From Thalassospira xiamenensis M-5 = DSM 17429 (GTDB lineage Bacteria > Pseudomonadota > Alphaproteobacteria > Rhodospirillales > Thalassospiraceae), in NCBI RefSeq assembly GCF_000300235.2, contig NZ_CP004388.1, positions 3,170,001 through 3,234,000 on the forward strand: a stretch of 64,000 nucleotides of DNA, in the 5' to 3' direction. A model generated the notes under the pieces. It had not been told where the DNA came from and did not search any database. It saw nothing but the letters and a program-made list of their open reading frames with translations. This document shows positions 10,145 through 55,630 of this stretch, in pieces. A program made the position numbers and the translations under genes. Each line of letters opens with the position of its first letter. Position 1 is the first letter of the stretch.

Positions 10145-10309
10145 TTTCCGGATGCAGAATCAGAATGGTATGCAACCCAGCTATACGGTGGCATTAGCCA
10201 TATTTAATGGTCATCCGGACATTTTCTTGCCATAATCTTCAACCGGCGCTATACCGCGCGGAAAACGGGGATGGGGTCCCCCTATTGTCAGGAAGACTGG
10301 GCTAAGCGA

Positions 10310-19400: not shown

Positions 19401-20626
19401 TCACCCGCGCACTTGTCATAAAGCTGGGGCTGGGGCAGCTCATCAGTTGGGGCACGGCCTATTATCTGATTGGCAATTTCGGAACCCTGATCGCCCAACA
19501 TCACGGCTGGTCCGACAGCGTGGTTTATGCCGGTTTCTCGGCAAGCCTCCTGACCATGGCGGTCATATCCCCCTTTTGCGGCAGGATGATCGACCGTCAC
19601 GGCGGGCGGATCATCATGACGCTGGGGTCATGCCTCAATGCCCTTGGCTGTCTGATCCTTGCATTCGCCGATCATCAGATCATGCATTTCATCGGTTGGA
19701 TCATTCTTGGGCTTGCCATGCGTGCCACCCTTTATGATGCGGCCTTTGCCACCCTCGCCCGGATTGGCGGGCGCGATGCCAGACGGGCGATGGGGCAGAT
19801 CACGCTTTTTGGCGGCTTGGCCTCAACCGTCTTCTGGCCGCTCGGGCATTTGATCCAGTCGGAATTCGGCATCACAATCGCCCTTGTCGTCTATGCCGCT
19901 TTTGCCCTGTTGACCGTCCCGATGTATGCCGCCATCCCCGATGCCCGACATGGCAAACCTTCGGGAACCACCCTTAATTCCACCGATAATACCAATGACA
20001 CCAGTAATGCCGATGACCATGGACTGCCAACGCATCAACGCCTGTGCGGCTTTCTGTATGCCGTGATCGTCACCCTGCTCAATGTCGTGAATGCCGCAAT
20101 GTCGGCCCACATGATCGCCATCCTGATCGGACTTGGCTTAACCACCGCCGCCGCGATCAATGCCGCATCGCTCCGCGGTATCGGCCAATCCGCGGCGCGT
20201 GCCGCCGAAATCCTGTTTGGCAAACGCATCGCCCCGGCAAGCCTGACATTGTTTGCCACGGCCGTTTTGCCGCTGTGCTTCGTCCTTGCCTTCTGGGGCG
20301 ATCAGTTTGCGATTGCCGCCATGACCTTCACCCTGCTTTACGGGGCGGCAAACGGCGTCCTGACAATCACGCGCGGAACCCTTCCCCTGATGATCTTTGG
20401 CAATGCCCGCTACGGCCATCAGGTCGGGCGTTTGCTGGTACCGGGTTTTATCCTCTCCGCCCTCGCACCCAGCCTTTACGAACGCGCCATCGCGCACTGG
20501 GGCCCCAACGGCGCACTCTGGCTTTCCATCGGCCTGCTGGCCTGTGCCTGTGGCGCAGCCATATGGCTTTATCTGCTCTTACGCCCGCAAAGGTCTGAAA
20601 CCCGCCCTGCGCTGATTGTCCGATAG
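19397..20626 (+). CDS. MFS transporter
   Basis: 409 residues with about twelve hydrophobic segments in two halves and a polar, Asn/Thr/Asp-rich loop between them (about residues 190-215). The GRMIDRHGGR motif after the second helix is the MFS signature loop. It is translationally coupled to the acetyltransferase gene, so it may export the same toxic compound or its acetylated form. The substrate is not identified. It is followed by a hairpin shared with the convergent autotransporter gene. Confidence 0.85.
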   Translation: MITRALVIKLGLGQLISWGTAYYLIGNFGTLIAQHHGWSDSVVYAGFSASLLTMAVISPFCGRMIDRHGGRIIMTLGSCLNALGCLILAFADHQIMHFIGWIILGLAMRATLYDAAFATLARIGGRDARRAMGQITLFGGLASTVFWPLGHLIQSEFGITIALVVYAAFALLTVPMYAAIPDARHGKPSGTTLNSTDNTNDTSNADDHGLPTHQRLCGFLYAVIVTLLNVVNAAMSAHMIAILIGLGLTTAAAINAASLRGIGQSAARAAEILFGKRIAPASLTLFATAVLPLCFVLAFWGDQFAIAAMTFTLLYGAANGVLTITRGTLPLMIFGNARYGHQVGRLLVPGFILSALAPSLYERAIAHWGPNGALWLSIGLLACACGAAIWLYLLLRPQRSETRPALIVR

Positions 20627-20644
20627 ATATTTCTCATAAAAAAA

Positions 20645-20667
20645 GCCCGCAAATCAAATTTGCGGGC
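20645..20667. terminator. Bidirectional terminator between MFS and autotransporter genes
   Basis: Perfect 10-bp stem GCCCGCAAAT / ATTTGCGGGC with a three-base loop. A run of T follows in the minus direction. Confidence 0.8.
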
Positions 20668-20688
20668 CTCACTAGCATCGCGTCGCGT

Positions 20689-22516
20689 TCAGAACTTCAG
20701 GTCTAAGGTAATCATCACATCTGCGCGCTGCGCAGCCGGATCCCCGGACAGGCTCAACTTACTCGAAAATCTGTCATCAATATCCGCAAGCATTGCGCCC
20801 GCGGAAATTTCTGGCGTCCCACGATCAGACAGGCTGGTACCGACATAGGGCGACGCCGTTACGGCAAAGTTTCCATCCCGACCGGTAAACGAAATACCAT
20901 AAGCAACCAAACCGCTCAGCGTGTATTCGCGGTAATCATCACGCCCGACCATGCGCGACCCTTCGATTGAGCCCGACAGACCCGTCCCGCCCGAGGCAAA
21001 CCGCACACCACCACCAAGGTCAAACGCCCCGGCATCGCCGTTGGTCTGGTCGGTGAAATCGTGGATATAACCCGCTTTGACATATGGCGTCAGGGACGTC
21101 TCGCTTATCTGGAAAGAATAGGCCAGCTCGGCATTCGGCTTTAACTGAACGGTATTGACCGAGGATTCAGCAACCCGGCTACCGTCACTTTCGGTGTAGG
21201 CAGCAAGCGTATTGCGCGACGTCAATGCACCCAGCCCGCCCGTAACCCGAAACGGGCTATCTGCAATTGGCTGGAAAGTCTGGCGTGCATCAACCTGCAG
21301 ATACCAGGTCTGGCTGTCGGTATTTCCCGTCACAGTGCTATTGCGGCTTCTGGCGACATCCCCGAACGCATATCCCGCAATCGCCGAGAAGGTCAGCATG
21401 TCCGACGGTCTATAGATCACATAGGGCGAGAGGTTCCACGTATCCTCTTCGTAAGTGCCGTTCTCAAAGGTGGTCGTAATGTCTGTCTGGGCGTAGCCGA
21501 CGGACATACCCGCCACCAGTGCGGGCGAAAAACGATAATCCGCACCGACATTGTACCCCCAGACGCTACCGTCGTAACGGCCGTCCTCGCCCGTCCGGTT
21601 GCGCGTATTCTCGATATCGGTAAAGGACCCATGCCCCCAGATCGTAATCGGACTTTCGCGAGACAGCAGCGTTCGTTGTTCCGCCCCATCCGTTGCACTA
21701 TCAGCGTTTTGCGCCACCGCAAGCACACGCGATGTATCGAAAGACGCAAGCATCGCCAGCCCGCCCAGGGTTGTCCCCTCCGTGCGCGTTTTCTTGCCCA
21801 TGGGATCATCAAGCAAGCCCACTGAAGCAAAACCGAATTGCTGTGTCGACGTGGTGTTAGTATTAGCCGGCACCGTTCCAACGGATTGGCCAGCTGTCAT
21901 ATTGGCCACCCGTGATCCGAAATTCTGGCCGATGATCACAGATTGCGCCCGTGTTGCCGAACCTTGAAGCGCGCGCAGGGCAGCGGCCGAGCTATCAGAG
22001 GATGCAGCATCAGCAGTCGTGATTGTGACCGATGCACTGTTGAAGGTCGTAGCCCCCCCCTACCACTAGGGTATAATTGACGGTCATCCGGATCGTCGCC
22101 CCGTTCTCCCCATCAATGGTGACCGTCGCGGTTTCATTAGTGGCATTTTCGCGGTCATTTGTGCAACTAGCACCAGCGGCGGCGTTAAAAGCGCCGAGAC
22201 GACATCCTCTATGCGCAGCATCGTCGCTGCTACCCCCGGTTCCGATCCTGAATTGCTCGACTGAGAGGTTCGAGTTTCGGACCTGGAAGACGATATCGCG
22301 CAATGCGGTGCTGTTGTTTTCATTATTTGCCGCGACGCAGGTACCATCACTGTCGTCGTAGGCCACATGAGAGGTCGATGCATTGGCTGCTGCGAGGTTG
22401 GTGCAGGTGATTGTCGTCGTTGCCGCAAATGCGTCACGCCCATCACCGGCCATAAAGCCACAAAAGATGGTCATCGCCAAAAGCAGCAACGATGGCAATT
22501 TAGCAATACTAATCAT
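20689..22516 (-). pseudogene. Autotransporter outer-membrane protein, frame broken at a G8 run (possibly phase-variable)
   Basis: Two open frames are joined at a run of eight G (C8 at 22053-22060 on the plus strand). The upstream part starts at 22516 behind GGGGAC and has a signal peptide ending near DAFA, then a short Asn/Thr-rich passenger. It runs off frame after TLVVGGG. Dropping one G continues it as TLVVGGATTFNSASVTITT and leads straight into the 416-residue autotransporter beta-barrel, which ends in the expected terminal Phe (DLKF). The restored protein would be about 600 residues, with an unusually short passenger. With eight G the product is a truncated secreted peptide. A sequencing error, a dead gene and reversible slippage are all possible. 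Confidence 0.7.
22053..22060. repeat. Homopolymer of eight C (G8 on the coding strand) at the frameshift
   Basis: The run lies exactly where the autotransporter reading frame changes; loss of one base restores it. Confidence 0.9.
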
Positions 22517-22555
22517 ACAGGTCCCCGAACCATTCCGCCCCAAACAGATTTATCG

Positions 22556-22613
22556 CACGCAACACCGCGTTGCATAACAACCTCCCACGCAACACTGCGT
22601 TGTGTAATAACCT
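22556..22613. promoter_or_regulatory. Two 28-bp direct repeats, each with a dyad, upstream of the autotransporter
   Basis: Copies at 22556-22583 and 22586-22613 with a 30-bp period (about three helical turns). They share CACGCAACAC-GCGTTG and AACCT ends and differ at only a few bases. Each holds the dyad GCAAC-N5-GTTG. They lie 40-100 bp upstream of the autotransporter start, a normal place for operators. The binding protein is unknown. Confidence 0.6.
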
Positions 22614-22743
22614 GACTAGCTAAAATTTTTATTGTGATCAACCTTTTAAGAGCCACAAAAACAACGCGCGGTTTCACCACGCGGAAACTTCAGGCCCTGT
22701 GTCGCTTCTTTTGGTCGGGAGCGTATCTTCAACCCACGGTGGC

Positions 22744-22906
22744 TTAACCGGCCTTCCATGCGGTTTCCAGCATGTCGGAAATCGCCTTGCTAAGATGCCC
22801 CGACACGGGCAGGGCGGGCGGAATGTTTTCGGCAATCATCGGACAACGAATCATCCATCAGCACCTTGAACGCATCACGATAATAAATCATGTCATCAAT
22901 ACTCAT
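22744..22906 (-). pseudogene. Remnant of a small gene with a frameshift
   Basis: An ATG at 22906 begins MSIDDMIYYRDAFKVLMDD. The frame then fails, and the +1 frame continues as MIAENIPPALPVSGHLSKAI to a TAA at 22744. Together these read like about 55 residues of a real protein broken by one base change. No family is recognised. The Gly-rich stretch upstream also keeps a possible earlier part (LIYPALGGV) ended by a stop. It sits next to the tandem-repeat arrays in a gene-poor stretch. Confidence 0.35.
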
Positions 22907-23110
22907 TCCCGACACATTGGCCATCTGCCCATAACTGGCAGTTCAAACCCCGCCAAGGGCTGGATAAATCAACGCCGCCCCGGAACCCGGCCCCCAAAGC
23001 TCTCTTCGCGCGCCCGGACCGCAATCCCGGCAGCCAGAACGATCTTCTTGCCTGAATGCACCCGGCGATCTGATCCGTGCCTTTGCCGATCCGCCGGTCT
23101 TGCATTTCAC

Positions 23111-23190
23111 GGGTTGGGTTGGGTTGGGTTGGGTCGGGGCGGGTCGGCTCTGCTCGGCTCTGCTCTGCTCGGCTCTGGCCCTGCCATGCC
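23111..23190 (+). repeat. Five-base tandem array (GGGTT then GGNTC-like units)
   Basis: Sixteen consecutive five-base units: four GGGTT, then GGGTC, GGGGC, GGGTC, GGCTC, TGCTC, GGCTC, TGCTC twice, GGCTC, TGGCC, CTGCC and ATGCC. The first part has five runs of three G separated by two bases and should be able to form a G-quadruplex. Confidence 0.85.
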
Positions 23191-23282
23191 TGCCCCGCCA
23201 TTCCGATGCCGCCTTTGTGACATTGGCCGGGCTTGGCGGAGGTGATGCTGCACGGGCAACGGGCAAATCCCCTGCCCGGCCT

Positions 23283-23354
23283 TCGCATAGCTTGGCGGTC
23301 TGGCAGTCTCGCGGCCTGACGGTTTCGCAGCTTGGCCGTCTGGCGATCTGGCAT
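23283..23354 (+). repeat. Eight-base degenerate tandem array
   Basis: Nine units of eight bases with consensus YYTGGCRG (for example CTTGGCGG, TCTGGCAG, CTTGGCCG, TCTGGCGA, TCTGGCAT). It lies 90 bp after the five-base array. Confidence 0.65.
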
Positions 23355-23708
23355 CGACGGAGCTGTCGCACCTGCCGATCTGATCCGGTCGCAATTCGGC
23401 CCTGCCGCAACCACAGTCATTGCCATCGCCACCCCTGTCGGGTTTGCCTCTTTCGCCTTCCCGACACTTCCGGCACGTCCCGATGCCCGAAGGACACATT
23501 TCTCCCGTCATGATTAACAACCGTTTTCGCAAATGCCCCCCGAAACTTATCGAGGCTATCGGGCGTCACCGCCCGGACGCACGTCCCCCGTAATGACTTT
23601 TCCATCCGCCATCAATGCCCCTGTGGCAACGTCGTCGTCGCCCTGCCGCCCCATCAGATCGCTGAACAATCATCGTCACTTTCCTGTCTTCCCGGCCCGG
23701 ATAAGCAA

Positions 23709-23746
23709 AAACCCGCGAAAGCGCATCACGCTTTGCGGGTTTTTGA
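23709..23746. terminator. Bidirectional terminator downstream of prpE
   Basis: Long stem AAACCCGCGAAAGCG / CGCTTTGCGGGTTT with one bulge and a five-base loop, flanked by A and T runs. It lies about 220 bp beyond the prpE stop. A second hairpin (CCGCCCGCAGGAT / ATCCGGCGGGCGG, 23869-23907) lies nearer the gene but lacks a T run. Confidence 0.6.
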
Positions 23747-23963
23747 TCCGGGTGCATTTGTCCCGTTGACTTTGCCTTTATGGCACAAATAAAAGAACAA
23801 ATCAAGAACATTTTTCGGAAAAATTCATTCCCGTGAAAATGGTATATTTTTCAATATATTAGGAAGGCCCGCCCGCAGGATAAATCAGAATAAATCCGGC
23901 GGGCGGTGATGCTGCCCCGGCCCCATACCAGTCCCGGCATTGGGAGTTTTCATCCCATCAGGA

Positions 23964-25865
23964 TCACGCCGATTTGGCGTAACCAATATCTTTCAGGGCT
24001 TCGGCAATTTCCGGCAAAATCCCCGGATCATCAATGGTTGCCGGGGCGTTATATGCCTCCCCATCCGCGATGGATCGCATGGTTTTACGAAGGATTTTGC
24101 CCGACCGGGTTTTGGGCAGACGATCCACGATGGTTGCCTGCTTAAACGCCGCAACCGGCCCGATCTGATCGCGGACCATGGCAACCACTTCCTTGATGAT
24201 CGCCTCATGCGGGCGGTCCACCCCGGATTTCAGAACCACAAAGCCAAGCGGTAATTGCCCCTTAAGGTCATCATGCACCCCAATGACGGCACATTCGGCA
24301 ACATCGGGATGCCCCGAAAGCACTTCTTCCATCGCCCCGGTCGACAATCGATGCCCCGCGACATTGATGATGTCATCGGTTCGCGACATCACATAGATAT
24401 AGCCGTCCTCATCGATAAAACCGGCATCCCCGGTGGCGTAATAGCCCGGGAATTCTTCCAGATAGGCCGACCTGAACCTTTCATCATTCTGCCAAAGGGT
24501 CGGAAGTGTTCCCGGCGGCAATGGCAGCTTGGCGACCAGTGCGCCGATCTTGCCGCGTTCAAGCGGCTTGCCGCCCTCATCCACCACCTGCACGTCCCAG
24601 CCACAGGCCGCGACCGTCGGCGATCCATATTTGATCGGCAGCATTTCAATACCGCGCGGATTGGCACAGATCGACCAGCCGGTTTCGGTCTGCCACCAAT
24701 GGTCGATCACCGGCACGCCAAGGCTGTCTTCGGCCCAGTGCAGCGTATCGGGGTCTGACCGTTCGCCCGCAAGATAAAGCGCCTTCAGGCATGAAAGATC
24801 ATAATTGGCCATCAACGCGGCCTTGGGATCATCGCGCTTGATCGCGCGAAACGCGGTTGGTGCGGTAAACAGGACCTTGACGCGATGCTGCGATATCACC
24901 CGCCAGAATGCCCCGGCATCGGGCGTTCCGACCGGTTTTCCTTCATACATCACCGTCGTGCATCCGGCCAGAAGCGGCGCATAAACGATATAGGAATGCC
25001 CGACGACCCACCCCACATCGGATGCCGCCCAATACACATCACCCGCCTCAACATCATAGATATTTTTCATCGACCAGTTAAGCGCCACCATATGACCGCC
25101 ATTGTCGCGCACAACCCCTTTGGGCTGGCCGGTCGTGCCCGATGTGTACAGCACATAAAGCGGGTCGGTCGCGGCCACGGGCACACAATCAGCCGGGGCG
25201 GCCTTGGCACATTCCGCCATCCAGTCAAAATCACGGCCGTCGATCAGCGGGGCCGAACATTGCGCCCGCTGGAACATCAGGACCGTTTCGACCTTGTGCT
25301 TCGCCTGATCAATCGCGCGGTCCAGAAGCGGCTTGTATTCGATCACCCGCGATCCCTCGATACCGCAACTGGCACTCAGGATCAGCTTTGGCTTTGCGTC
25401 ATTGATCCGGGTCGCAAGCTCGTTCGATGCAAAGCCACCAAACACGACCGAATGGATCGCACCAATGCGCGCACAGGCCAGCATCGCCATCGCCGCCTGC
25501 GGGATCATTGGCATATAGATGATCACCCGGTCGCCTTTGGTCACCCCCTTGGCATGCAGGGCCCCGGCAAGGCGCGCAACCTCATCACGCAACCGGTTAT
25601 AGGTGAATGTTTCAATCGTATTGGTGACGGGGCTGTCATAAATCAGGGCCGCCTGTTCACCACGACCGCCTTCGATATGACGATCCAGCGCATTAAAACA
25701 GGTATTGACCATTCCGCCTTCGAACCAGCGATAAAACGGCGCGTTGCTGTCATCAAGCACCCGGTCCCATTTCTTGTACCAGGACAGACTTTCCGCAGCT
25801 TCTGCCCAGAAACCTTCCTTGTCCGCGATCGAACGATCATAGATTTCCTGATAGCGACCCGTCAT
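23964..25865 (-). CDS. prpE: Propionyl-CoA synthetase (acyl-CoA synthetase, PrpE type)
   Basis: 633 residues from the ATG at 25865, chosen for the perfect GGAGGAAG ribosome site; a start at 25904 would add 13. N-terminal acetyl-CoA-synthetase cap domain (YQEIYDRSIADKEGFWAEAA), P-loop-like YTSGTTGQPKGVV, adenylation motif HWWQTETGW, YYATGDAG, and the catalytic lysine in KTRSGKILR, where protein acetylation can switch it off. The enzyme ligates propionate, and less well acetate, to CoA in the cytosol. No methylcitrate genes are adjacent, so acetate or another short acid cannot be excluded. Transcribed alone. Confidence 0.85.
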   Translation of the reverse strand: MTGRYQEIYDRSIADKEGFWAEAAESLSWYKKWDRVLDDSNAPFYRWFEGGMVNTCFNALDRHIEGGRGEQAALIYDSPVTNTIETFTYNRLRDEVARLAGALHAKGVTKGDRVIIYMPMIPQAAMAMLACARIGAIHSVVFGGFASNELATRINDAKPKLILSASCGIEGSRVIEYKPLLDRAIDQAKHKVETVLMFQRAQCSAPLIDGRDFDWMAECAKAAPADCVPVAATDPLYVLYTSGTTGQPKGVVRDNGGHMVALNWSMKNIYDVEAGDVYWAASDVGWVVGHSYIVYAPLLAGCTTVMYEGKPVGTPDAGAFWRVISQHRVKVLFTAPTAFRAIKRDDPKAALMANYDLSCLKALYLAGERSDPDTLHWAEDSLGVPVIDHWWQTETGWSICANPRGIEMLPIKYGSPTVAACGWDVQVVDEGGKPLERGKIGALVAKLPLPPGTLPTLWQNDERFRSAYLEEFPGYYATGDAGFIDEDGYIYVMSRTDDIINVAGHRLSTGAMEEVLSGHPDVAECAVIGVHDDLKGQLPLGFVVLKSGVDRPHEAIIKEVVAMVRDQIGPVAAFKQATIVDRLPKTRSGKILRKTMRSIADGEAYNAPATIDDPGILPEIAEALKDIGYAKSA

Positions 25866-39746: not shown

Positions 39747-41144
39747 TCACTCGTCGAGATGCATCACAATCTCTTCGCACATCTTTTTGGCGTCACCGAA
39801 CAGCATCATCGTGTTGTCCTTGAAGAACAGCTCGTTCTGGATACCGGCGTAGCCTGCCGACATTGAACGCTTGATGAACAGAACGGTTTTGGCTTTTTCG
39901 ACCTCAAGGATCGGCATGCCAAAAATCGGCGATGACGGGTCGGTTTTGGCTGCCGGGTTGGTGATGTCGTTGGCACCAATCACAAAGGCCACATCCGCCG
40001 TGCCGAAATCGCGGTTGATTTCTTCCATTTCAAGCACGTCGTCATAGGGGACATTCGCCTCGGCCAGAAGCACGTTCATGTGGCCTGGCATACGCCCCGC
40101 TACCGGATGGATGGCATAGCGAACGTTAACGCCCTCGGCCTTGAGGATATCGCCCATTTCACGAAGCGCATGCTGGGCCTGTGCGACCGCCATGCCGTAA
40201 CCCGGCACGATGATCACGCTCGACGCGTTTTTCATGATGAAGGCCGCATCGTCGCTTGAGCCCGATTTGACCGAACGGTCGCCATCGGTTCCGACCGCCG
40301 GGCCTGCATCGCCCTCGGTCCCGAAGCCGCCAAAGATGACGTTAAAGATCGACCGGTTCATGCCCTTGCACATGATGTAGGACAGGATCGCACCCGATGC
40401 ACCAACCAGTGCGCCGGTGATGATCAGGGCATTGTTCTGAAGCGTAAAGCCGATGCCGCATGCCGCCCACCCCGAATAGGAGTTCAGCATCGAAACAACA
40501 ACCGGCATGTCCGCCCCGCCAATCGGAATGATCAGCGTCACGCCAAGCACCAGAGCAAGCACCACCAGAATCCAGAAAGCCGTGTGGCTTTCGGTGGTCA
40601 CAACGATGATGCCAAACACCAGTATTCCGATTGCGATTGCAAGATTGAGCATATGCTGCCCGGTAAAGCGAACTGGCGTACCCGATACGATCCCCTGCAA
40701 CTTGCCAAAGGCAACAAGCGAGCCGGTGAAGGTAATGGCACCGATGGCAACGCCAAGGCCCATTTCAATCAGGCTGGCCGCCCCGATATTACCCGCCGTG
40801 CCAATGCCATAGGCACCCGGCGAATAAAGGGCGGCGGCGGCAACAAACACCGCTGCCAGACCCACCAGCGAGTGGAAGGCGGCAACAAGTTGCGGCAATG
40901 CGGTCATCTTGATCTTGAGCGCGATGACCGTACCAATGGCCCCGCCAAGCAAAATGCCGACAATGATAGTGGTATAAGACACGACTTCGGGTGATGCCAG
41001 GGTGGTCAGAATGGCAATCGCCATCCCCACCATGCCAAGGATATTCCCGTTACGTGCCGTTTCCGGTGAAGACAGACCGCGCAGCGACAGAATGAAGCAG
41101 ACGGACGCCACCAGATACAGGAAAGCCGACAGGTTTTCCGACAT
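39747..41144 (-). CDS. pntB: NAD(P) transhydrogenase subunit beta
   Basis: 465 residues. About nine hydrophobic segments in the first 260 residues form the membrane domain II, followed by the NADP-binding domain III (VIIVPGYGMAVAQAQHALRE, HPVAGRMPGHMNVLLAEANV, FVIGANDITNPAAKTDPSSP). The enzyme uses the proton gradient to reduce NADP with NADH. It is the last gene of the operon pntAA-pntAB-pntB, 12 bp after pntAB. All NADP-binding motifs are intact. Confidence 0.95.
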   Translation of the reverse strand: MSENLSAFLYLVASVCFILSLRGLSSPETARNGNILGMVGMAIAILTTLASPEVVSYTTIIVGILLGGAIGTVIALKIKMTALPQLVAAFHSLVGLAAVFVAAAALYSPGAYGIGTAGNIGAASLIEMGLGVAIGAITFTGSLVAFGKLQGIVSGTPVRFTGQHMLNLAIAIGILVFGIIVVTTESHTAFWILVVLALVLGVTLIIPIGGADMPVVVSMLNSYSGWAACGIGFTLQNNALIITGALVGASGAILSYIMCKGMNRSIFNVIFGGFGTEGDAGPAVGTDGDRSVKSGSSDDAAFIMKNASSVIIVPGYGMAVAQAQHALREMGDILKAEGVNVRYAIHPVAGRMPGHMNVLLAEANVPYDDVLEMEEINRDFGTADVAFVIGANDITNPAAKTDPSSPIFGMPILEVEKAKTVLFIKRSMSAGYAGIQNELFFKDNTMMLFGDAKKMCEEIVMHLDE

Positions 41145-53995: not shown

Positions 53996-55630
53996 CTAGC
54001 TGAATGTCGGGGCATGTACGGCCATGCCCTGAAACATCTCGTCATGGTACCAGTCGATCCGGTACGCCCGGATCGGCGGGGTTCCTTTACGAAACAGGAT
54101 CTGTTCTTCGACCGGGAAGCGCGCAACTTCGGTTGATCGCAGGATTGGCTGATTGTCCTGGGGTCGCAGATGCACCGGGCGATCACCGCTTACACCACCC
54201 CCGGTATCGTCAAATTTCGACATCGCAGTCAGTCCGGCAACCCAATCCAGGTTGAAAGCCCCATCCTGGCTCAGCACCGAAATCGCATCCGCCTTCCCGA
54301 CAACATTTTCCCAATTCAGGCAAACATCCATCAGGCCGCTAACACCGGAAAAACCGGGCCAGATGATCATGCCATCGCCAAACCCGCCACCCAAAAGACG
54401 TTCAAACAACGGCATCCGGCCAACGGCCTCGATACCGTCCAGCAACACCAGAAATTCTGCATCCCCGCTTTTCCAGTCCCGGCGGGCAATCAGCTGCATC
54501 ATCGCACCAATCATCACCCGGCTGAATGCGGTTTGGGTGGCCGGTGTGTCACCTCCCATTTGACCGACAATGAAAATGGATACCGGTCGCCCCGTCAGAT
54601 CATCCATACCAAATGTGCTATTGCTGACGACACGTGCAATCGCCGGATTGTCAAAATCGGCCGTTGCCATCCGGCACGCCTCGATAATCGACATCCGCTG
54701 ATCTTCGGTCATATCAAGGATCGTCAGGGCAATATCAGAAATCCTGCCATCTGCGGATTCAATCCCCATCAGATCCTCAAGTATTTTATAGAAACGGTGC
54801 GATGGCATGACCAGGTTGCGGCGAACTTCGGCAAGGCTTCTGCTTTCTTTCAGGCTGGTTTGCATTGTGTAAACAATGAACCCCTGCAAAAGGGTGCGTG
54901 CCGCGCGTGTTTCCTGCTCGTCCAGTTCCTGTACAAATGCCGGTGCCAACAATGTATCGGCAATCAAACCGGCATCGGCAATTAATCCTTCGCCCTGCTG
55001 GCGTATAAAATCGCATGGATTGAACTGATCGGTTTCTGCGCCGGCCTGACCATGCGGATCAATCACGATGATCCGCTGCCCAAGTTTTTTGCGGCGCTCA
55101 TGCACCGCACGATAGATGCTGCCATAACGTTCATAAACAAACAGCGCACCAGTATGGAGCAAGGCGTTTGGCTCCGCCGAAGCGCGATAATATTCTTCCG
55201 GCTTGCTGGCGAATGTTATCACTCGGCGCAATCCCGATGCCCCGATCAGGCGCTTTTCAGCCCCCCAGCGTCCCAGAACGATTGACGGCTTGGGATCAAG
55301 AAGCTTTCGCGCTTCCAGGTCTTCGGCCTTGGCCCATTGGCCCTCGGCTTTCATCTTGGCCGCTACCATTGGTGATACAGATTGTTTTTTCTTCGACGGG
55401 GATGATTGCGCACGATTAAGCACGATCACAACCAGCGGCAGGAACATCGGAATGATAAAACAAACCGCCCCTAACAAAGCCAGCTCATAATCACCGTTAA
55501 AAACGCCAAGCGCGACAACCATAGCGCCAAGCGCCCACAGCAGTACCATGATGACGCGGAACAAGCCTGCCCCCATCATTCCCCCCCCAAGAATGTTTAC
55601 CTGTCTTTTAGCGAAGAGACCCCAATGCAT
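53996..55630 (-). CDS. Solitary TraG/VirD4-like protein without Walker motifs
   Basis: 544 residues; two N-terminal membrane segments (about 22-75) precede a domain with the TraG/VirD4 coupling-protein order. GQRIIVIDPHG, QFNPCDFI, RVVSNSTFGMDD, PVSIFIVGQMGGDT and LLDGIEAVGRMPLFERLLGG correspond to conserved coupling-protein strands. The Walker A site, expected near residues 135-160, is replaced by ITFASKPEEYYRAS. Walker B reads LLDGIEA where LLDEF-A is usual. It is probably a non-ATPase member of the fold. No other secretion or conjugation gene is nearby. The frame is intact for its length, arguing for a function. A G8 run (55581-55588) lies between the ATG at 55630 and two Met codons at 55579/55576. 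Confidence 0.6.
   Translation of the reverse strand: MHWGLFAKRQVNILGGGMMGAGLFRVIMVLLWALGAMVVALGVFNGDYELALLGAVCFIIPMFLPLVVIVLNRAQSSPSKKKQSVSPMVAAKMKAEGQWAKAEDLEARKLLDPKPSIVLGRWGAEKRLIGASGLRRVITFASKPEEYYRASAEPNALLHTGALFVYERYGSIYRAVHERRKKLGQRIIVIDPHGQAGAETDQFNPCDFIRQQGEGLIADAGLIADTLLAPAFVQELDEQETRAARTLLQGFIVYTMQTSLKESRSLAEVRRNLVMPSHRFYKILEDLMGIESADGRISDIALTILDMTEDQRMSIIEACRMATADFDNPAIARVVSNSTFGMDDLTGRPVSIFIVGQMGGDTPATQTAFSRVMIGAMMQLIARRDWKSGDAEFLVLLDGIEAVGRMPLFERLLGGGFGDGMIIWPGFSGVSGLMDVCLNWENVVGKADAISVLSQDGAFNLDWVAGLTAMSKFDDTGGGVSGDRPVHLRPQDNQPILRSTEVARFPVEEQILFRKGTPPIRAYRIDWYHDEMFQGMAVHAPTFS
55581..55588. repeat. Homopolymer of eight C (G8 on the coding strand) at the 5' end of the TraG-like gene
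   Basis: Lies inside codons 15-17 if translation starts at 55630, or one base before the ATG if it starts at 55579. In either case a change of length could alter expression. Confidence 0.85.

Follow-up and report, generated by a model that had tools for sequence, protein, structure and literature searches.

A Thalassospira autotransporter gene whose reading frame is broken at a G8 tract

Organization of the locus

The window, i.e., the whole stretch of 64,000 nucleotides analysed here, comes from a Thalassospira chromosome (G000:C1:3170001-3234000), in a genome of two contigs and 4.77 Mb. It contains an autotransporter gene that is whole in the relatives but here falls into two reading frames, which meet at a G8 tract (Table 1). 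The upstream minus-strand frame spans 22549-22013, with its ATG at 22516 and its stop at 22012-22010. The barrel frame is open from 22059 to 20692, with its stop at 20691-20689, and its last residues are ITLDLKF. The two frames overlap by about 50 nt. Since a TAG of the barrel frame sits just upstream, at 22062-22060, the shift is confined to 22010-22062, where sequence inspection finds the G8 tract to be the only run of more than two bases. Alignment with the nearest relative puts a one-base indel at this tract; a shift elsewhere in the frame overlap was rejected on this ground. Given 33 G/C tracts of at least eight bases in 4.77 Mb, the chance that a random 53-nt interval holds one is about 4e-4, and tract and frameshift are, therefore, linked. 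A first-pass annotation, made from the sequence alone, had placed the meeting of a signal-peptide/passenger frame and a barrel frame at this tract, and both the open reading frames and the alignment confirm it.

Table 1. Features of the split gene, its surroundings, and the long G/C tracts of its family (window coordinates unless stated otherwise)
Feature	Position	Strand	Remarks
N-terminal frame	22010..22516	-	signal peptide and most of passenger; 168 aa, out-of-frame stop
G8 tract (C8 on plus strand), family tract of window gene	22053..22060	-	5' end of frame overlap; Gly-rich hairpin-turn codons of passenger
C-terminal frame	20689..22059	-	last passenger strand, helix, linker, barrel, C-terminal extension; 456 codons + stop
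Segment holding the autotransporter	20672..23045		absent at same place in G008 and G007; locus comparison
About 200 bp matching part of an autotransporter-neighbouring frame of other species	22837..23037		sequence match
Terminator-like hairpin and T tail after barrel-frame stop	20642..20670	-	13 pairs; consensus scan
Two 30-bp tandem copies and imperfect palindrome upstream of ATG	22553..22612		repeat scan
Family tract G9	L176 1234-1242 (G026)		in frame, end of passenger of another family autotransporter
Family tract G10	L022 1082-1091 (G025)		probable leader; upstream ATG in another frame
Family tract C8	G016		147 nt before open frame

The signal peptide was judged by eye, and a helix occupies residues 6-24 in the structure model. 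Neither Pfam nor NCBIfam yielded a match for the 168-aa N-terminal product, and NCBIfam yielded none for the gene.

Around the gene, the consensus scan for terminator-like sites returned five hits compared to 2.4 in shuffled sequence, and the promoter scan returned none; Rfam gave 0 matches in 20000-25000. Sequence similar to the tandem copies was seen by eye upstream of several among seven relatives; elsewhere in the genome, this repeat is found at two sites, with two mismatches each, which equals the result for a reversed control pattern. In the leader before the ATG (22517-22535), a G-run is G4 in the window and in one HF15 copy, whereas G019 and others have G6. On the side towards the acyl-CoA ligase gene, the autotransporter is followed at 23110-23352 by a cluster of short tandem repeats (periods 5, 8, 10, and 15), the length of which is not the same as in G019 and G008. 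A dispersed repeat of about 340 bp (23484-23824) has at least nine further copies in the same genome and, among the matches listed, many in G007, G008, G019, G026, and G028.

The site is empty in G008 (238 bp) and G007 (about 237 bp), where it is flanked by a transporter gene and the sequence that precedes the acyl-CoA ligase gene. In G028, about 1.2 kb separates the flanks, and this interval contains no autotransporter match. The 200-bp stretch upstream of the gene is probably a remnant carried along. In G013 and G005, the autotransporter gene lies between the frame containing this stretch and a frame that, by eye, resembles a CocE-type hydrolase; in G009, G016, G023, and G027, the stretch is likewise found near the gene. 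From these comparisons, the gene seems to have reached its present place in the lineage leading to the window genome and G019, bringing along part of its former neighbour.

Barrel, fold, and passenger

The C-terminal frame matches the autotransporter barrel family PF03797 with an E-value of 5e-29 (102 bits against a cut-off of 26), as do all 50 relatives scanned; 78 of 7998 candidate proteins scored against the barrel frame had E-values of at most 1e-3. The structure model was made for a natural relative, P0001, and the fold comparison spans its residues 173-541. The model shows a 12-strand barrel that encloses a helix, an arrangement shared with solved members of the classical type Va, and matches the solved barrels of Hbp (3aeh), EstA (3kvn), NalP (1uyn), EspP (3slj), and BrkA (3qq2), with 12-17% identity to the Thalassospira family in these matches. 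Together with the intact relatives, the barrel domain and the fold matches (Hbp, EstA, and NalP) substantiate the view that an autotransporter gene is broken at the tract. We read the gene as a split Thalassospira autotransporter of the classical type, with a small, β-rich passenger. A signal peptide, a passenger, and a barrel in a single open frame, which type Va members require, are found in 38 other genes, but not in the window. As assembled, with its frames separated, the gene is a broken family copy and not a working type Va member.

The first-pass annotation had, in addition, taken the frame junction for the boundary between passenger and barrel. The position at the tract stands, whereas the boundary does not: in the model, the break falls within the passenger, at the turn that leads into the final passenger strand, and would be followed by that strand, the helix, a disordered linker, and the barrel. 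According to model and alignment, the G8 site corresponds to a variable, glycine-rich hairpin turn.

Solved autotransporter barrels stop at their last strand. The matches to them end near residue 540 of 607, whereas the Thalassospira family adds about 66 residues beyond. The barrel frame ends in Phe, and the model sets four more strands (551-605, block pLDDT 48-58) past the matched barrel; this low-confidence stretch (P0001 residues 541-607, window 20692-20892) may owe its strands to faulty modelling or represent a C-terminal extension of an uncommon kind. Among the relatives, P0071-P0073, one of them named Sneathiella, combine ubiquitin-like Pfam domains (PF00240, PF11976) with the barrel.

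The gene family in Thalassospira

With one genome compared per species, 39 full-size family genes, including that of the window, were found in 29 Thalassospira genomes (E at most 1.8e-73). A profile search recovers the same 39 and reads the window gene as two pieces. The 38 others are single open frames of 604-709 aa and are devoid of internal stops; one of them (G009:C10, 604 aa) runs off its contig. Below these, shorter relatives are found on G009:C12 (380 aa, at a contig end) and at G005:C4:586543 (with internal stops). Database proteins that are 95-97% identical over the barrel frame are full length (607-618 aa).

The tract site was aligned at the DNA level with nine relatives, drawn from ten close copies (one of three copies in G023 was omitted). 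A G-run longer than five is present in none of the nine, the longest being five. The nearest relative, Thalassospira sp. MCCC 1A03138 (L033; genome G019, 93-95% DNA identity to the window), has interrupted glycine codons at the site. Relatives had been proposed as a test, in which intact genes with a tract of fixed length would point to an assembly error; the genes are intact indeed, but, in the aligned relatives, there is no tract whose length could be fixed.

Some full-length protein could still be produced by programmed ribosomal frameshifting or transcriptional slippage on the G8 tract, situated as it is at the extreme 5' end of the overlap between the frames. However, no relative is arranged in this way, all other full-size members being single open frames, and we consider this reading hardly credible.

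Passenger diversity

The two sides of the tract differ strongly in their substitution pattern. Between the window copy and G019, 47.5 nonsynonymous and 10.5 synonymous differences lie before the tract, compared to 25 and 53 after it (Fisher p 1e-8, rounded counts). Among six close copies, the dN/dS of the passenger ranges from 0.7 to 1.7, with none of the 15 pairs significantly above 1 (best, 0.919 of bootstraps), while that of the conserved remainder of the gene is 0.12-0.19. The values of 1.47 against G019 and of 1.68 on a stricter stretch are likewise not significant, so that a passenger ratio significantly above 1 was rejected. Against four more distant copies, the ratio drops to 0.27-0.33 at a dS above 1; thus, the freedom of the passenger becomes visible only among close copies.

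P0001 is a mosaic as judged from sequence identity: its residues 32-75 share 93% with P0018 and 52% with P0002, whereas for its barrel the corresponding figures are 90% and 99%. A variable, mosaic passenger on a conserved remainder would fit a surface-exposed recognition domain, and one may guess at phages or predators as the source of the pressure on it.

Decay or maintenance

Downstream of the tract, 446 codons are free of stops, and their dN/dS between the window copy and the nine relatives is 0.12-0.19 (0.146 for the nearest), compared to 0.11-0.21 for the same codons among intact copies (13 pairs). On the window branch, nonsynonymous and synonymous codon changes stand at 7:12, on the G019 branch at 6:14, with 31 ambiguous ones set aside (Fisher p 0.74). 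The earlier argument that the clean barrel speaks against long decay is upheld by ratios like those of intact pairs and by the lack of a nonsynonymous excess on the window branch. It follows from the absence of decay downstream of the tract that the break is either recent or not real. An old pseudogene under decay, to which the broken frame and the lack of the gene from this location in G007, G008, and G028 could also point, is in conflict with these downstream data and is considered very improbable.

Base-call error or mutation

Eight-base homopolymers rank among the error-prone places of a genome. A base-call or assembly error in the run, with the gene intact in the living strain, would agree with the open frames of all other full-size members and with the otherwise flawless state of this gene. 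The exact 168-aa product is present in the protein database (P0079) on two contigs, the longest of 4,576,570 bases; these need not be independent.

The assembly as a whole argues in the other direction. The window could be aligned to G019 over 61,790 of its 64,000 bases (2,210 bases fall outside), and in the aligned part the indel at the G8 tract is the only one that, by our judgement, breaks the frame within a gene and is not cancelled by another; the assembly is, therefore, not generally indel-rich. Calls of inside or outside a gene are based on judged gene starts. Other candidate indels were rejected on account of their positions: before the S21 frame (36314), ahead of the AIR carboxylase start (30342), at the histidyl-tRNA synthetase start (61584), between phosphofructokinase and a DUF465 frame (28875), between a dehydrogenase and TrcR (14356, 14614), before the starts of open reading frames (17008, 1411, 2615), near the start of the 53996-55630 frame (55579, 55626), before an internal ATG (10150-10167), and in frames with no Pfam match (12626, 12702, 26086, 22978-23148). 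Within three genes, clusters of gaps cancel (19971/19987, 40295-40303, 55306/55312). A second C8 of the window lies near the start of the 53996-55630 frame (55581-55588), where G019 has C6.

Genome-wide, 24 of the 33 G/C tracts of at least eight bases lie in stop-to-stop frames of at least 200 aa and eight do not, the remaining one being the window tract; placement was by ORF length via inspection, and ten frames, belonging to five loci, were also checked against Pfam. Only the window tract sits at a confirmable frame junction. The genome's C12 tract (L067), considered as a second split gene, lies between short-chain dehydrogenase and phasin frames. A single error in about 25 tracts is, nevertheless, quite possible, and a miscall is in our view an unlikely yet serious explanation.

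An evolved switch or an incidental run

The first-pass annotation had further proposed that the gene is phase-variable and was caught in its OFF state, i.e., an evolved contingency gene with the G-run as a slippage switch. This proposal draws on the surface location of the protein, the variable passenger, and the one contingency-gene feature present, a repeat tract exactly at the frame junction. Two further features of such genes are absent. The tract is not conserved in place, none of the nine aligned relatives having a run longer than five, and its length is within chance: eight-G matches number two in the window and 3.8 ± 2.8 in dinucleotide-shuffled sequence. As, moreover, no second split gene at a tract was confirmed, phase variation is not borne out. 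A literature search for Thalassospira together with "phase variation", with most subscription journals outside its scope, found nothing.

A further point on the side of a switch, less telling than the free variation and mosaicism of the passenger, comes from the family. In 37 family ORFs with 150 bp upstream of each (75,291 bp; one ORF cut by a contig end), four G/C tracts of at least eight bases were seen against 0.42 expected (Poisson 0.0009), and two of at least nine against 0.115 (0.006); without the window gene, three of at least eight remain against 0.41 (0.009). These figures are post hoc, from a test devised after the data had been seen, which ignores differences between genomes and left out three full-size members in L163 and L012 missed by the motif. 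However, the four tracts are at unrelated places. For the G10 of G025, the ATG just before the tract lies in another frame, and a translational switch was considered; the tract is probably leader, since the relative P0082 (64%) has its predicted start after the tract and the G025 protein itself (P0081) starts later still.

As for length, the Bordetella study (PMC1891110) reports that tracts below the authors' length threshold are also phase-variable in that genus; accordingly, G8 would not be too short in principle. In the same study, however, the BP3651 locus is described as varying within a culture only above C8. Altogether, an evolved switch appears doubtful, and less probable than a miscall.

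We favour, over both of these, a recent one-base length change in an incidental G-run of an otherwise maintained gene, with a probability of roughly one half. The preference is based on the variable, glycine-rich turn in which the run lies, on the lack of such a run in all nine aligned relatives, and on its length being within chance; the over-representation of long G/C tracts in the family, which would fit a contingency role, counts against it. According to this favoured sequence of events, the run would have arisen by ordinary drift in glycine codons, from a state such as the interrupted codons of the nearest relative, and polymerase slippage would then have shifted the frame. In the assembled state, only an exported passenger fragment of 168 aa, lacking its last strand, would be made, and no barrel, so that nothing should be displayed. 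The same slippage could in principle reverse the change.

More speculatively, this free-living marine genus may keep small autotransporters with passengers that diversify and recombine on a fixed barrel under pressure, for instance of phages or predators, and poly-G runs that appear within or ahead of these genes may serve as transient, non-conserved contingency switches; we regard this picture as tentative and improbable as a whole. If the length change is real and varies in culture, the gene would present a poly-G switch in a marine alphaproteobacterium. Should it prove to be an isolated mutation, or a miscall, the fast-varying mosaic passenger on a conserved barrel would still offer a clean contrast in an easily testable non-pathogen.

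Comparison with known systems

The closest described parallel is bapC of Bordetella (PMC1891110). Together, bapC, which is grouped there with the autotransporters, and tcfA of Bordetella pertussis are precedents for a switch by a coding tract: as in the window gene, a G-tract in the coding region of a surface-protein gene breaks the frame, and for bapC the most common allele is predicted to give a truncated protein. The bapC tracts are mostly G11, with mixtures of G10-G12 (in some strains G8-G10), and their length varies even inside one colony. The window gene, in contrast, has G8, its aligned relatives are devoid of the tract, and it is known here from one assembly.

The alternative, plain inactivation that is not tied to a tract, is represented by capC and capD of Campylobacter (PMC7168839). 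As in the Thalassospira family, intact copies of these autotransporter genes exist beside others that stops or frameshifts have inactivated, and the inactivation of capC is stated to be independent of the length of upstream tracts. Their decay is lineage-linked across thousands of genomes, whereas in Thalassospira one of 39 full-size genes, from 29 genomes, is split.
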